Source: Magnetospirillum sp. (GTDB lineage: Bacteria; Pseudomonadota; Alphaproteobacteria; CACIAM-22H2). From it: a stretch of DNA of 64,000 nt. Below are positions 15,411-55,983 of this stretch, one piece after another. Under the pieces are notes generated by a model, which made no database searches, was not told the DNA's origin, and saw only the letters and a program-made list of their open reading frames with translations. The position numbers and the translations under genes were made by a program. The DNA lies in NCBI GenBank assembly GCA_027532905.1, contig JAPZUA010000005.1, positions 124,001 through 188,000 on the forward strand, given 5' to 3'. Each line of letters starts with the position of its first letter. The first letter of the stretch is position 1.

Positions 15411-15510
15411 CGGACGGCTTTCAGGGAAAAGGGCGGGAGCTGGCCCGAATCGACCGGGCGGGGCCAAATCCTACCGCCCCTTCCCCTGGCGAGGCAAAAA
15501 CCCTATATTC

Positions 15511-15786
15511 GGCGGTGCCGGGCAACCGGCTATGACGATAAACGGCTTGCGTAATAGCCGATGCGGACCCGGGGGCAGTGCCCGGCGCCTCCACCATCTC
15601 CGGTCGCTTGTCGAGGCCGTAGGGGGGCGAACCAGGATCGACGCGCGGGTAAAGGCATGACTTTCGTTCGGCATGGTTCCGCCGTTATCGGGCCATTCAA
15701 GAGATGCCAACGACAACGTGGCTCTCGCTTCGGAAGCGCGTCTCGCGGCCTAACGGCCCCTTGATACGTAACCTGTAGCGCGGTTC
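15511..15786 (+). ncRNA. ssrA: Permuted two-piece tmRNA (alphaproteobacterial ssrA)
   Basis: This RNA rescues stalled ribosomes and tags the stalled protein. The gene is circularly permuted. The acceptor piece comes first and ends in CGCCTCC-A-CCA at 15586-15596. A spacer of 26 bases follows, and the coding piece starts with GGGGGCG at 15623. The two ends pair as a 7-bp acceptor stem that includes the G3:U70 pair recognised by alanyl-tRNA synthetase. The line GAACCAGGATCGACG after the stem matches the tmRNA 5' domain. The tag reading frame at 15706-15753 encodes ANDNVALASEARLAA and a TAA stop, so with the charged Ala the tag is 16 residues. A GCCGG-GCAA-CCGGC hairpin opens the acceptor piece. 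A TATATT -10-like box lies at 15504. Exact RNA ends are estimates. Confidence 0.93.
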
Positions 15787-15822
15787 GGGGGGGCACCGGG
15801 CAACAGAAGCCCCCCCACTTTT
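15787..15822 (+). terminator. Intrinsic terminator of ssrA
   Basis: An 8-bp stem, GGGGGGGC / GCCCCCCC (15787-15794 and 15809-15816), is followed by ACTTTT. It stands directly after the coding piece of the tmRNA and before sspB. Confidence 0.8.
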
Positions 15823-19359: not shown

Positions 19360-20340
19360 ATGGCCGATCCCGATCTCGATCTTCTGTTCGACGCGGAATT
19401 TCCGCCCGGCGAATTGCTGTTCGCCAATGCCGATTGGCACAACGCGATGGGACCGCTCGCAAATCGGCTGTGGTGCCTGCAGGATTGGAAGCCTGCCGCC
19501 GACCGGCTGTCGGCACGCAATCTGCGCCTCGGCACCCCCGAATCATCCGTCGCAACGGCGCTGGTGCGCCTCGGCCGGCAGCGCGCGCGCAATCTTTTCA
19601 ACATTGCCCAGGCGCTCGCGTCCCTCGGCCCCGGCGGGCGTCTGCGCGTCGCAGGCCGCAACGAGATTGGGCCCGCACGCTACGCCAAGGACCTTGCCGC
19701 AATCGGCCTCGTCCCGATTGCCACAAGCAAAGGCAAAGCAAGGCGCCTCGATGCGACCGTGACGGGGCCGCTCGATCTCGCGGCGTGGGCGGGGGAAACC
19801 GCGGAGCGCCCGATCCTCGACGGGCGCTTCGTCTCCGCCCCCGGCATTTTCGCCTGGGACCGCATCGATGCGGGCTCGGCCGCCCTTGCGGCGTTGCTGC
19901 CGACCGACCTTGCGGGCCATGTCGCCGATCTCGGGGCGGGCTTCGGGTATCTTGCGGCAACGGCCTTGGCGCAGTCGCCCGCGATCGAGCGTCTCGACGC
20001 GTTCGAAGCCGATCGCCCGGCGGTCCGCTGTGCAGCTGCGAACCTGTCCGCGTTCGGGGCGCGGGCTCAGGCGAGGTGGCACGACGTGACCGCCGGGGTC
20101 GGCGCAGCACTTTACGACGCGGTGCTGACCAATCCGCCCTTCCACGAAGCGCACGGCGAAGATCGCAGCCTCGGCTTGCGCTTCATCGACGTGGCGGCGG
20201 ATGCGCTCAAACCCGGCGGGCGACTCTATCTCGTCGCCAACCGGCATCTGCCCTACGAGCAGAAGCTCGACGCGCGCTTCAAGCGCGTCGTGCGACTGCA
20301 CGAAGGCAACGGCTTCAAGGTCTACGCAGCCTGGGCGTGA
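19360..20340 (+). CDS. RsmC-like class I SAM-dependent methyltransferase
   Basis: This 326-residue protein resembles the RsmC/RlmG group that methylates guanine N2 in rRNA. The N-terminal half is a degenerate methyltransferase-like domain. The C-terminal half has the SAM-binding loop VADLGAGFGYLA and the catalytic TNPPFHE motif typical of N2-guanine methylation. I chose the ATG at 19360 because the open frame upstream runs through other genes without homology. The rRNA target is inferred from the family. Its 3' end overlaps the end of the convergent GNAT gene by 19 bases. Confidence 0.85.
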   Translation: MADPDLDLLFDAEFPPGELLFANADWHNAMGPLANRLWCLQDWKPAADRLSARNLRLGTPESSVATALVRLGRQRARNLFNIAQALASLGPGGRLRVAGRNEIGPARYAKDLAAIGLVPIATSKGKARRLDATVTGPLDLAAWAGETAERPILDGRFVSAPGIFAWDRIDAGSAALAALLPTDLAGHVADLGAGFGYLAATALAQSPAIERLDAFEADRPAVRCAAANLSAFGARAQARWHDVTAGVGAALYDAVLTNPPFHEAHGEDRSLGLRFIDVAADALKPGGRLYLVANRHLPYEQKLDARFKRVVRLHEGNGFKVYAAWA

Positions 20341-20816
20341 ACGAGGCCCGCCGTATTCGCAAACGCACCCGGCACGAGTTCGAGCCCAAGAAAGCGCTTG
20401 GCTTCGACCGGCCCCGGCAAGGCGAGCGTGCGCGTGTGGTCAGCCGTGAAGCCGAAGCGCCCGTAATAGGGCGCGTCGCCGACCAGGAACACGCGCCGAT
20501 GGCCGAGGCGGCGGGCAAAAGCCAGCCCCTCCTCCACCAGGCGCGCACCGATGCCGCCCGTGCGGGCGTCCGCATCGACCGCAAGCGGACCCAGCATCAG
20601 CCCGTCCTGCGACCGACCGAAGCGCACGTGCCAGAAACGCACCGTGCCCACGAGTTTGCGCCGCGTGCGCGCAACAAGGCTCAAGCCGCGCACCGGCGCG
20701 CGGCCCGCGCGCAGGGCGTGGCAGGTCTTGCCGCGCCACGCACCCGCGAACGCCTGGTCGAGCATCCCCTCGACCGCCGGATCGTGCTCCGGCAGTTCGG
20801 CCGCGATCTCGATCAT
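20322..20816 (-). CDS. GNAT-family N-acetyltransferase
   Basis: This 164-residue acetyltransferase has the GNAT motif A in DARTGGIGARLVEEGLAFA, followed by VFLVGDAPYYGRFGF as in YhbS-type members. The substrate cannot be read from the sequence. A second gene with the same layout (VVLVGDIGYYKRFGF) lies at about 44.2 kb, so the two are related or have similar roles. It ends inside the 3' end of the methyltransferase gene on the other strand and starts just after the ornithine decarboxylase stop. Confidence 0.85.
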   Translation of the reverse strand: MIEIAAELPEHDPAVEGMLDQAFAGAWRGKTCHALRAGRAPVRGLSLVARTRRKLVGTVRFWHVRFGRSQDGLMLGPLAVDADARTGGIGARLVEEGLAFARRLGHRRVFLVGDAPYYGRFGFTADHTRTLALPGPVEAKRFLGLELVPGAFANTAGLVHAQAA

Positions 20817-20823
20817 CGCCGCC

Positions 20824-21957
20824 TCAGATGCAGTAGCACTTCAACGGCTCGAAGCCGTTGAAGGCGACCGCCGAGTAGGTCGTGGTGTACGCACCCGTCG
20901 CACGGATCTCGAGACGGTCGCCCGCCACGAGATCGATCGGCAGACGGTAGTCGGCCTTTTCGTAGAGCACGTCGGCCGAATCGCAGGTGGGCCCTGCGAG
21001 GATCACGCGCTCGACCTTGCTGCCCTTCTTGGCGGACACGATCGGGTACTGGATCGCCTCGTCCATCGTTTCGGCCAAACCGCCGAACTTGCCGATATCG
21101 AGGAACACCCAACGCTTCGTGTCGGTCTTCGACTTGCGCGACACGAGCACCACTTCGGTGTCGATGGTACCGGCATTGCCGACCATCTGGCGGCCGGGCT
21201 CGACGATGATCTCGGGCACGCGGTTGCCGAAATGGCGCGCGAGGGCCGCGTGGATCGCAGCGCCGTAGCTGCCCATCGTCGGGATGTCCTTGCGGTACTT
21301 CGTGGGGAAGCCGCCGCCCATATTCAGCATGTTGAGCTGCACGCCTGCGTCTTCGCATTCGCGGAACAGCCAAGCGGCCTGCGCCACGGCCGCATCCCAT
21401 GCGTTCGGGTCCTTCATCTGGGAGCCGACATGGAACGACACGCCGTGCGGCACGACGCCCTTCGACGCCGCCGCGATCAGCAGTTCGCGCGCCATCGCCG
21501 GATCGCAGCCGAACTTGCGCGACAAGGGCCAGTCCGCCCCTTCGCCCGAGGTGAGAATGCGGCAAAACACTTTCGCGCCCGGTGCGGCAACCGAAAGCTT
21601 CTCGAGTTCGGCTTCCGAGTCGAACGCGAACAGACGCACGCCGCGCGCATAGGCGGCCGCGATATCGGCCTGCTTCTTGATCGTGTTGCCGAACGAAATG
21701 CGGTCGGCCGCCACGCCCGAACGCAGCGCCATGTCGATCTCGTTGACCGACGCGGTGTCGAACGACGAGCCGAGCTTGGCAAGCGTGTCCAAGATCTCCG
21801 GTGCGGGGTTCGCTTTGACGGCGTAGTAGATGCCGGCCTGCGGGACCGCGTCCTTGAGCTTGCGGTAGTTGTCCGCGACGATGTCGAGGTCCACGACCAC
21901 GTAGGGGGTCGGGCGTCGTTCGGCGAGGAAGTCGCGGATCTTTTTGCTGTTGGTCAT
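20824..21957 (-). CDS. odc: Ornithine/lysine decarboxylase, fold III type
   Basis: This 377-residue PLP enzyme belongs to the alanine-racemase-fold ornithine/lysine decarboxylases and should supply putrescine. The PLP lysine is K48 in YYAVKANPAPEIL. The pyridoxal-phosphate motif is LNMGGGFPTKY, the phosphate region is EPGRQMVGNAG, and the active-site Cys is in GPTCDSADVLYE. I chose the ATG at 21957, which gives the family's length and has GGAG upstream. It lies 31 bases after the homospermidine synthase stop, same strand, so the two form one polyamine operon. Strict preference for ornithine over lysine is not proven by sequence. Confidence 0.92.
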   Translation of the reverse strand: MTNSKKIRDFLAERRPTPYVVVDLDIVADNYRKLKDAVPQAGIYYAVKANPAPEILDTLAKLGSSFDTASVNEIDMALRSGVAADRISFGNTIKKQADIAAAYARGVRLFAFDSEAELEKLSVAAPGAKVFCRILTSGEGADWPLSRKFGCDPAMARELLIAAASKGVVPHGVSFHVGSQMKDPNAWDAAVAQAAWLFRECEDAGVQLNMLNMGGGFPTKYRKDIPTMGSYGAAIHAALARHFGNRVPEIIVEPGRQMVGNAGTIDTEVVLVSRKSKTDTKRWVFLDIGKFGGLAETMDEAIQYPIVSAKKGSKVERVILAGPTCDSADVLYEKADYRLPIDLVAGDRLEIRATGAYTTTYSAVAFNGFEPLKCYCI

Positions 21958-21988
21958 CCCGAGATACTCCAGTTCTCCAGAGAATGCG

Positions 21989-23410
21989 TCAGGCGACGCG
22001 GAAGTTGGTGAATTGCCAGGCGTCGGACCGGTCGAGCGGTTCCGGGAACAGAAGTTCGCGGTCCTGCAAGGGCGTCCAGTCGGTGTAGGCGCCGACGACT
22101 TCGCCCAGATACGGGCGGCAGACTTCCATGCAGCGCGCATGGTCCATCTCGTCCGCTTCGACGAGGCCGGCCTTCGGATTTTCGAGCGCCCACACGATGC
22201 CCGCGAGGACCGCCACCGTGACCTGCAGCGAGGTCGCGTTGTTGTGCGGCACGAGCTTGCGGGCCTCGGCGATGGTGAGGCGCGAGCCGTACCAGTAGGC
22301 GCCCTTGGCGTGGCCCATCAGCAGCACGCCGAGCTCGTCCATGCCCGAAACGATTTCGTCCATCATCAGGCGCTTGGCGGGCTGCATGTGCCAGTTCTTG
22401 CCGGCCACTTCGTGCACCGACTTCACGGCGTCGTCGCACGGGTGGTAGGCGTAGTGAACGGTCGGCCGGTACGTGACGGCACCGTCTTTCTTGACCGTGT
22501 AGTAGTCGGCGATCGAGATCGCTTCGTTGTGCGTGACGAGGAAGCCGTGGAACGGCCCTTCGAGCGGCGTCCAGGTGCGCACGCGCGTGCTCGCACCCGG
22601 GCGCAGCAGATAGATCGCCGCGTCGCAGCCGAATTCGTGGCGGCGGCCGTCGGCGGGCAGCGCCTTTTCGTGGCTGCCCCAGCCGAGTTCGGCGGGCTGG
22701 CAGCCTTCGCCAACGAAACCGTCGATCGACCATGTGTTCACGAACTCGCCGACCTTCTTGGGGCGGTCGGCGACTTGCGTGTCGCGCTCGGCGATGTGCA
22801 CGACCTTGACGCCGAGCTTGGCGGCAAGGCCGGCCCAGCCTTCGCGCGTGGCGGGGGCCGCCTGCGGCACGCCCGTGTCATTGGCGATGTTGAGCAGCGC
22901 TTCCTTGACGAGGTGCGAGACGAGGCCCGGATTGGCGCCGTGCGTGAGCACGGCCGTGGGGCCGCCCGCGTATTTCGTGCGCAGTGCGCGCGCGGATTCG
23001 CGCAGCGCGTAGTTCGAACGCTGCGAGGGCGTGAGCGACGGATCGGTGTAGCCGCCGGCCCAGGGCTCGATGCAGGTGTCGAGATAGAAAGCACCCTTTT
23101 CCTGTGCGAGCTCGATCAAAGCGACCGACGACACGTCGACCGACAGGTTCAACAGGAAATCGCCGGCGGCCAGGCGGGAGCCCACCACGGCGCGGTAGTT
23201 TTCGCGCGTGACGGCGATTTCGGCGAAGTCGATACCGTATTCGGCGGCCACTTCGCGGCCGCGCGGCTCGGCCGTCACGATCGCGATGTTTTTGGCCGGC
23301 ATGTCGATGTGGCGCAGGATGAGCGGCAGCACGCCCTGGCCGATCGAGCCGAAGCCCAAGATCAGCAGACGCCCGCCATAGGCCACATGCTTTTTACCCA
23401 ATGCTTCCAT
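21989..23410 (-). CDS. hss: Homospermidine synthase
   Basis: This 473-residue NAD-dependent enzyme makes sym-homospermidine from two putrescines, or from putrescine and spermidine. The Rossmann motif is ILGFGSIGQG (residues 17-26). Conserved blocks are DTCIEPWAGGY, THGANPGLVSHLVKEAL and CDDAVKSVHE. The ATG at 23410 follows GGGAGCG and gives a normal length. The longer open frame runs into the leader region and looks like shadow. It is the first gene of the polyamine operon with odc, and its long structured leader is described separately. Confidence 0.93.
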   Translation of the reverse strand: MEALGKKHVAYGGRLLILGFGSIGQGVLPLILRHIDMPAKNIAIVTAEPRGREVAAEYGIDFAEIAVTRENYRAVVGSRLAAGDFLLNLSVDVSSVALIELAQEKGAFYLDTCIEPWAGGYTDPSLTPSQRSNYALRESARALRTKYAGGPTAVLTHGANPGLVSHLVKEALLNIANDTGVPQAAPATREGWAGLAAKLGVKVVHIAERDTQVADRPKKVGEFVNTWSIDGFVGEGCQPAELGWGSHEKALPADGRRHEFGCDAAIYLLRPGASTRVRTWTPLEGPFHGFLVTHNEAISIADYYTVKKDGAVTYRPTVHYAYHPCDDAVKSVHEVAGKNWHMQPAKRLMMDEIVSGMDELGVLLMGHAKGAYWYGSRLTIAEARKLVPHNNATSLQVTVAVLAGIVWALENPKAGLVEADEMDHARCMEVCRPYLGEVVGAYTDWTPLQDRELLFPEPLDRSDAWQFTNFRVA

Positions 23411-23535
23411 CAAAAGACGCTCCCGATGTCCTGCCGATTGTGCGAGCCTTGCGCAAAAGACAAAGACAAGTCCGGTCCAACGGGGCCGACCAAAGCGGCC
23501 AACGACGTCGAAATCCGGTTGTTCGAACGGAACGG

Positions 23536-23618
23536 AAAAAAGGCTTCCGCAGCGAAGTCGCTGCATCGGGCGCCGTCAGAACCCGAAAGCGGGCATGACG
23601 ACGCTGGTCCCGATGCAG
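23536..23618 (-). promoter_or_regulatory. Candidate attenuator leader upstream of hss
   Basis: On the leftward strand a rod hairpin occupies 23618-23561. It has a 10-bp helix (CTGCATCGGG with CCCGATGCAG), then an 8-bp helix (CGTCGTCA with TGACGGCG, one G-U pair), and a CCCG-CTTT-CGGG tip. Directly downstream a second hairpin, GCAGCG-ACTT-CGCTGC (23564-23549), uses four of the same bases, so both cannot form together. A T6 run follows at 23541-23536, after seven bases. This is the layout of a terminator/antiterminator switch. The first gene, hss, starts 126 bases further on. The seven-base gap before the T run is longer than in a textbook terminator. The structure was read by eye and the ligand, if any, is unknown. 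Confidence 0.5.
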
Positions 23619-23760
23619 GCGATGCCGATAAAGCGCGGCACCGCCCCCGCGGCGGTTATCCTTTTATGGTCGGAAGGCGCAAAGCCCCGAACTCGGCCGC
23701 AACCATGTCACATCCCCTAAGGTTCACCGGCCCACTGTCGACCGGTTCGTACCGAAAAGG

Positions 23761-23989
23761 ACGCGTCACCGTCGTTGCTTGACCTCGAGCGCTTGGTGGT
23801 CGAGAGGCGTGAGAGCTCTTCGCGAGCTCGCCGCCCTACCTCTTAGCGCTTGCCTCGTGGGCCTGGGGCACGTGCGATTGGCGTCTGAGGGGGTAAATAT
23901 CACAAATGCCCGCGCGCGCAATAGGAAATTGGCCCCGCGCGCAATTTTTTTCGCGGCGGCGGCTCAAGCGCTGCACACGGCCGCACGCT
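23761..23989 (-). other. Distal part of the hss upstream gap, possible promoter and structured RNA
   Basis: No gene is visible here; the gap from hss to the next gene is 579 bases. On the leftward strand a TTGCGC (23921-23916) and TATTTA (23899-23894) pair, 16 bases apart, could be a sigma-70-like promoter for hss, which would give a leader of nearly 490 nucleotides. Inside that leader, 23850-23788 folds by eye into a nested element: AGCGCT with AGCGCT, GGCG with CGCC, and GAGCTC-GCGAA-GAGCTC. I do not recognise a known riboswitch class. Confidence 0.3.
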
Positions 23990-24481
23990 TTATTTGTATT
24001 TGGCACTCGCTGCACGCAAGGCCGCGAGCAGTTCGGATTCGATCTGCCCGCCGAAGCCGGTGATGCGCTGGGCGAGCACCACGTAGAGCGCGTCGATATG
24101 GTGGCCGACGATGACGGCGTTCCAGGCACTCGGCGTCTTGATCTGCAGCACGTAGTCGTGCAGCGATTTGGCGATCTGCGTCAGCAGCGGAAACCGGAAG
24201 GTGCCGCCGAGACCCTTGATGTCGATCGCGTCGTTGCCCACGCGCGCCAGCATGTCGCGCGTCAGGACTTCGCCCTCGGGCAGAGCCGCCAGATCCTCGC
24301 GCAGCTTGCGCAAGGTGGCACCGATGTCGCGCACGAATTTCTCGGAACTCTTCTCGACGACGTTCTGCAGCTTCTGCGTTTCGCCTGCCGACAGCACGAC
24401 GCCGAATCCGGTCTTGAAATTGACCGCGCGTTTGCGCAAGTCGCCCGACGGCTGGATGATCTGGACTTTCGGACCGGCCAC
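23990..24481 (-). CDS. Small helical protein beside receiver gene, unknown function
   Basis: This 163-residue protein is not recognised. It has no signal or membrane segment and reads as mostly alpha-helical. Residues 15-75 hold a charged heptad-like stretch (GETQKLQNVVEKSSEKFVRDIG, then LRKLREDLAALPEGEVL). The C-terminal part has ITQIAK-like helices and the block NAVIVGHHIDALYVVLAQRITGFGG. It lies 48 bases downstream of the receiver-domain gene, same strand, so the two are probably co-transcribed. A role as the receiver's partner is plausible, but only from location. Confidence 0.55.
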   Translation of the reverse strand: MAGPKVQIIQPSGDLRKRAVNFKTGFGVVLSAGETQKLQNVVEKSSEKFVRDIGATLRKLREDLAALPEGEVLTRDMLARVGNDAIDIKGLGGTFRFPLLTQIAKSLHDYVLQIKTPSAWNAVIVGHHIDALYVVLAQRITGFGGQIESELLAALRAASAKYK

Positions 24482-55402: not shown

Positions 55403-55829
55403 GCCAGACGGTCGGACGGCCGCGGTGCGGCCTTGCCTTTGCGGCAGGACAGCATCGAGGAAAGTCCGGGCTCCACGGAAACAAAGGTGCCGGGTAACGC
55501 CCGGCGGGGGCGACCCCAGGGAAAGTGCAACAGAAAACAGACCGCCAACCGGGCTTCGGCCCGCGGCAAGGTTGAAACGGTGGGGTAAGAGCCCACCGCG
55601 GACGCGGCAACGCGGACGGCATGGCAAACCCCACCTGGAGCAAGACCAAATAGGGGCGGCACGCAGACACGCGCAAGCGTTCTGCCGTCGGTTTCCGGAC
55701 CGCCGCCCGGGTCGGTCGCGCGAGGTGCCTGGCAACAGGCACCCAAGAGGAATGGTCGTCGCCGTCGCCCCTTGTTGCAAGCGATTGCGCAAGAGACGAC
55801 GACACAGAACCCGGCTTACAGACCGTCTG
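55403..55829 (+). ncRNA. rnpB: RNase P RNA
   Basis: This is a class A bacterial RNase P RNA of about 427 nucleotides, the catalytic RNA that trims tRNA 5' ends. Its ends pair as GCCAGACGGTC (55403-55413) with GACCGTCTGGC (55819-55829). Conserved blocks are GAGGAAAGTCCGGGCTCC, GGTGCCGGGTAACGCCCGG, ACAGAAAACAGACCGCC, GGTAAGAGCCCACCGCG and ACAGAACCCGGCTTACAGACC. Several antisense open frames across it are shadows. Its exact ends are estimated from the end pairing. Confidence 0.96.
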
Positions 55830-55983
55830 GCATTTTCCCTTTGAAGTTGAAACGTCGCGACGGCGGCCCCCTTAAAGCCGTATTTTCGCCAGAAATTTAG
55901 CCCGAATTATCGTTAAATTCAGTGCATCGCCGGCGCCGACGACACCAAGAACGAAACGTGTTCAAGCAAAAACAGGGGCTTAG

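Follow-up and report, generated by a model that had tools for sequence, protein, structure and literature searches.

The window, that is, the whole stretch of 64,000 nucleotides analysed here, contains a cluster of polyamine genes on the minus strand. The first gene, hss (21989-23410, 473 aa), encodes a protein with the saccharopine-dehydrogenase-type domains PF03435 and PF16653, the make-up of bacterial homospermidine synthase; the gene name comes from an earlier note on this DNA and from family knowledge. At 31 nt beyond its end starts odc (20824-21957, 377 aa), a COG0019-type gene, as at speF loci, for an ornithine decarboxylase-type PLP decarboxylase (PF02784 and PF00278). The third gene of the cluster, located directly after odc (20322-20816), encodes a GNAT acetyltransferase (PF00583), possibly a polyamine acetyltransferase; a similar gene follows odc in L147. 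The earlier note was right that the region ahead of hss belongs to a polyamine operon: it forms the 5' leader, with the genes in the order hss, odc. The gene order differs among relatives, odc being mostly first in Azospirillum, and the conserved leader described below is found at the 5' end of the operon in both orders.

A putative promoter was seen by eye at 23894-23921 (minus strand), with the -35 box TTGCGC (23921-23916), a 16-nt spacer and the -10 box TATTTA (23899-23894). The putative transcript start is A 23886. Elements of the form CTTGCA..TATWTW occur at comparable places upstream of many relatives. This call is tentative, as a strict consensus scan for promoters found none.

The earlier note had pointed to the segment 23618-23536, reading it as an attenuator or riboswitch composed of a rod hairpin and an overlapping terminator hairpin. 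Both hairpins are found in the minus strand exactly as it described them. The rod (23561-23618) has an outer helix CTGCATCGGG/CCCGATGCAG, an inner helix GCGTCGTCA/TGACGGCGC and a tip CCCG/CGGG. The second hairpin, GCAGCG-ACTT-CGCTGC (23549-23564), has GCAG in common with the 3' arm of the rod, and folding agrees that the two exclude each other, the second being unable to form fully once the rod is formed. The rod is exceptionally stable in this sequence (-37.6 kcal/mol, z -5.9, equalled by 0 of 200 shuffles) and ranks by stability among the top 0.4% of 64-nt segments in this GC-rich window. It is unusual but not unique, since 40 of 10,656 sampled segments, at roughly 25 places of the window, are equally stable.

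Comparison with relatives argues against this reading. The fold z-score at the rod site weakens from -3.6 in this genome to -2.8 in a neighbour with 98% identity and -1.7 in the next species, and lies between -1.3 and +0.9 in seven further loci of the Tagaea-like genus, so that in most of its species the site folds no better than shuffled sequence. The conservation of the helices in relatives, proposed in the earlier note as a check, is thus not observed: the rod is lineage-specific, being exceptional only in the two nearest species. The T6 run (23541-23536) is separated by seven bases from the stem of the second hairpin, whereas in an intrinsic terminator the GC stem directly abuts the U run. 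The two nearest relatives have TTTCTT and TGATTT instead. The run also lies within a small hairpin CGGAA/TTCCG (23533-23549), in its loop and its 3' arm, and the substitutions that break the run preserve the GGAA/TTCC pairing; in L035 and L036, where the run is lost, CGGAA..TTCCG is retained or extended to CGGAAAT..ATTTCCG. A terminator scan called none on the minus strand. We therefore rejected both the second hairpin as a terminator, with no terminator called and no conserved T run, and the rod as a conserved riboswitch; that this segment acts as an attenuator or riboswitch is very improbable.

Strong conservation among hss upstream regions is observed in the alignment at about 23890-23656 on the minus strand, upstream of the rod. 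The conserved leader consists of, in this order, TCGCACGTGCC, a variable insert, GCAACGACG, GCGTCCTTTTCGG, a CCGGTC/GGGCCGG hairpin, a Shine-Dalgarno box AGGG(G/A) and an ATG codon. All its parts are given here on the minus strand. Near the putative transcript start lies the 5' strand of helix P0, GACGC (23881-23885); its 3' strand, GCGUC (23760-23764), has two bases in common with the anti-Shine-Dalgarno strand. The box TCGCACGTGCC (23867-23877), the 5' side of P1, is near-invariant in relatives and is also present in the Rfam consensus of αr45. The following insert (23779-23866), with a stem GCGCT..AGCGC, is specific to the genus, the starts of the conserved boxes being about 99 nt apart here versus about 30 nt in most relatives. 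The core (23707-23778) contains the GCAACG box, the anti-Shine-Dalgarno strand, the hairpin P4 and the masked Shine-Dalgarno box. It is matched at 23778-23706 with 59.5 bits (E 2e-10) by the covariance model R1, trained on other genera with this genus left out. Helix P3 is formed by the anti-Shine-Dalgarno strand UCCUUUUCGG (23752-23761) and the strand CCUUAGGGGA (23713-23722), which holds the masked box AGGGG; between them lies P4, ACCGGUC-loop-GGCCGGU, with seven pairs (23726-23746). A leader reading frame of 16 codons, MVAAEFGALRLPTIKG and a stop, occupies 23656-23706. Beyond its stop codon lies one more hairpin, GGCGGUGCCG-CGCUUUAU-CGGCAUCGCC (23618-23645). Six loci from the genus have this hairpin there, and three of its nine pairs are changed on both sides among five distinct sequences.

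In helix P3 the conserved strand UCCUUUUYGG pairs with the Shine-Dalgarno box of a start codon over ten positions, eight of which are paired in this sequence. In 21 species outside the genus, 8 of the 17 pairs of the outer 10-position and inner 7-bp helices are changed on both sides; for P4 the count is five of seven. None of 500 shuffles equals the covariation of P3 and P4, and sliding of the register destroys the signal. Larger model-fitted sets, with canonical speF loci included, give 14/17 and 10/17 pairs changed on both sides, in alignments that lean towards the structure. The outer helix was missed by RNAalifold on a poorly registered alignment and was seen with a hand-set register and a cleaner set. 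Wherever both strands of P0 were located in a non-canonical sequence, they can pair. The helix has compensatory changes GAUGC:GCAUC (L094, L108) and GACGU:ACGUC (L142), and canonical loci have GCCC and GGGC at these positions. Covariation thus supports the predicted helices, P1 excepted. The candidate P1 pairing CGUGC:GCAACG showed no compensatory change; the P1 pairing of Rfam αr45 (UCG:CGA, UGC:GCA) suits L079 better, but several sequences with GCTACG mismatch it.

Fold prediction leaves the Shine-Dalgarno box of this sequence unpaired with a probability of at most 0.05, and the box is predicted to be paired in the window and most tested relatives. The predicted folds of L142 and L157 contain P3, whose probability is about 0.6 in L056 and L062 and about 0.2 in L094. 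Masking is therefore the prevailing, not universal, prediction, since L105 favours P0 (0.79), leaving the box largely open, and L094 masks weakly.

The masked box is followed by a start codon. An ATG 6-10 nt beyond it is present in 93 of 98 non-canonical copies, and an ATG or GTG in 95 of 98, while control windows give a mean of 4.3; the species in this count are related, not independent. Of 88 short frames, 68 have at most 20 codons and 19 have 21-62 codons, and the remaining one, L149, actually opens the ornithine decarboxylase gene. Indeed, the masked start is the ornithine decarboxylase start in nine loci (L054, L137, L139/L152, L142, L149, L151, L155, L157, L161), and in some of these the decarboxylase has an N-terminal extension that looks like a leader frame fused to it. 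The stop codon of the leader frame overlaps the ATG of hss in L015 and L053. First stops are concentrated at 10-18 codons in the leader frame and scattered in the other two frames. Within the genus the start, the reading frame and the stop are kept, the sole length change being one whole codon, and the variants GGATAA and GGGTGA retain glycine followed by a stop. Here 245 nt separate the end of the leader frame from hss, and thus coupling of the two cannot be direct. Longer leader frames of 42-61 codons in L138, L140, L153 and L158, from different families, have in common a C-terminal motif like GRKNPLSS, possibly for ribosome arrest or as a signal in the RNA. In-frame CGA AGT (Arg-Ser) codon pairs are found repeatedly in the leader frames of several families (L061, L084, L093, L116, L131 and L159).

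Judged by sequence and pairing, the element 23886-23656 is a diverged homologue of the αr45 (RF02347) and speF (RF00518) leaders taken together. Like αr45, it has at its 5' end the stem P0, which closes this part, and the conserved boxes TCGCACGTGCC and GCAACGAC. The RF02347 model matches at 23884-23757 with 18.2 bits, below its gathering score of 40. P0 differs, being GACGC:GCGUC here and GCCC:GGGC in αr45, and the subsequent U run is shorter and interrupted here. As at speF, a homologous GCAACGAC box and a long bulged stem-loop lie before a COG0019-type ornithine decarboxylase gene, at the head of its operon, in the diverged form often with hss. R1 finds canonical speF loci at the corresponding site with 28.4, 25.9, 24.4 and 15.8 bits, three at E 0.001-0.007 and one at 0.39. 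The reverse search with RF00518 gave no match in the window at the gathering score (37 bits), nor at E up to 5 over 20600-24000, and none in the genome from which the window comes. The strand after the stem-loop contains the Shine-Dalgarno box and a start codon here versus the CACACC..UUGCC block in canonical speF; the canonical 3' block GGCACACC..UUGCC and its small hairpin are absent, with the ATG and the leader frame in their place. Four canonical speF loci examined have no ATG or GTG at the masked position. In canonical loci the Rfam αr45 and speF models abut, αr45 lying directly upstream, and the outer helix extends over the two.

At Rfam gathering thresholds the leader matches no known class. 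Since it falls short of these curated thresholds and lacks the canonical 3' block, we do not file the element as an Rfam member; it is a new variant of a known orphan leader class. The earlier note recognised no described class, which holds as far as Rfam models stay below threshold, and has to be amended in view of the homology between the leader and the known orphan αr45/speF RNAs. Its expectation of a structured RNA suited to control before this operon, by a logic comparable to that of speF leaders, is borne out by the conserved element. The description of the speF leader of Alphaproteobacteria in 2005 gave neither a ligand nor a mechanism (Corbino et al. 2005, PMC1273637). In-line probing of its relative from A. 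tumefaciens was negative with six compounds, homospermidine not among these (PMC1273637). A literature search, mostly without subscription journals, found neither a description of the variant nor a later explanation of the speF leader. The enterobacterial speF leader orf34/speFL also combines a small leader frame and RNA structure before an ornithine decarboxylase gene (PMC6386406), and a short frame upstream of an ornithine decarboxylase operon is present here too. The two are alike on paper; informal comparison gave no sign of homology. The hidden ribosome binding site is that of the downstream speF gene in the enterobacterial leader and that of the leader frame here.

We suggest that the leader probably governs translation initiation at the masked start codon, and hence expression of hss and odc. 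The operon is headed by a diverged αr45/speF-type leader, in which the long P3/P4 hairpin buries the Shine-Dalgarno box of the first start codon of the mRNA by means of the conserved anti-Shine-Dalgarno strand. The 5' end of the RNA, in P0, pairs with bases overlapping that strand by two nucleotides and could therefore compete with it. A signal tied to the supply of ornithine or polyamines would shift the balance between P0 and the mask and thus set the frequency of initiation. In some relatives the masked start is that of ornithine decarboxylase itself. Here it is that of the 16-codon frame, whose translation may license the operon, either through coupling or in that the leader farther downstream stays open. 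This reading is favoured by the covariation of the masking helix and P4, the R1 match, the homology to speF and the ATG spacing, as well as by the loci where ornithine decarboxylase is masked directly, the overlap in L015 and L053, the odc and hss neighbours, the predicted pairing of the Shine-Dalgarno box and the constant 5' location. Against it count the non-uniform fold predictions (L105, L094), the absence of an ATG at the masked position in the canonical speF loci and in a second copy in this genome, the distance from the leader frame to hss, and the poor conservation of the peptide sequence between families.

Two other modes of regulation have to be weighed. P0, closing the αr45 part, and the following CUUUU (canonical GGGCUUUUUU) may form a leaky terminator that yields a short αr45-like RNA, hss being reached by read-through only; the masking helix would then be less important. 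Rfam αr45 ends at the same U run, covariation backs P0, Bartonella reportedly makes short αr45 transcripts distinct from the speF leader that lies downstream (PMC7717549), and there is a candidate sRNA at the speF locus of S. meliloti (PMC2573895). However, P0 has only five pairs here and is followed by a weak U run, CUUUUC, the terminator scan does not call it, and the conserved ATG after the masked box is left unexplained. We regard such attenuation as possible but not likely. Alternatively, the leader frame might sense arginine or ornithine by ribosome pausing, as in Salmonella orf34, where two consecutive arginine codons, Rho and a hidden ribosome binding site are involved (PMC6386406), and the RNA would just shape the response. 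A leader frame is indeed present in nearly all non-canonical copies, and the Azospirillum-type frames end in ..AL-AGA-CGG-stop with synonymous changes at alanine and leucine, thus containing an arginine pair. However, the frame of the window has a single arginine codon (CGC) and no pair, the C-termini differ among families, and a short frame is altogether absent from several relatives. Arginine in the leader peptides is above the level of base-shuffled codons, but not above that of the +2 frame, and for this reason was not taken as evidence. A sensor of this kind seems unlikely. Control of initiation by masking, attenuation by P0 and codon sensing are not mutually exclusive.

A broader reading, rather doubtful and offered as a conjecture, is that αr45 and speF together make up a single switch, each being one half of it. 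The terminal U run of αr45 consists of the same bases as the anti-Shine-Dalgarno strand, so that one element would decide whether a short RNA is terminated or the start codon is masked or open. This switch would have become a translational gate in Rhodospirillales and related groups, with either ornithine decarboxylase directly or a licensing leader peptide as its target, and would sense a polyamine-pathway signal such as homospermidine. So far αr45 has been filed apart from the speF leader, as an sRNA. The diverged form supplies for the outer helix, invariant in the 2005 description, the covariation that that paper could not show (PMC1273637). The helix hides a start signal, and about 100 sequences are now at hand, including the natural cases of direct ornithine decarboxylase masking; an orphan leader thereby becomes a directly testable gate on polyamine synthesis.

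R1 matches were found in 39 of 385 sampled alphaproteobacterial genomes, from 27 genera, and all matches with a legible neighbour lie before odc or hss. A sample of 299 genomes from the phylum gave no match outside this class. The second copy in the genome of the window (L145; G000, C1:1630792-1630861, minus strand, 43.6 bits) lies upstream of a second ornithine decarboxylase-type gene (397 aa) and has ATT, not ATG, after an SD-like AAGGGA. Two loci titled Asaia bogorensis (L036, L051) have hss genes and leaders resembling those of this Rhodospirillales group, and these bin names may be wrong. The window also contains an ordinary alphaproteobacterial tmRNA (15477-15819) and RNase P RNA (55404-55834), both on the plus strand.
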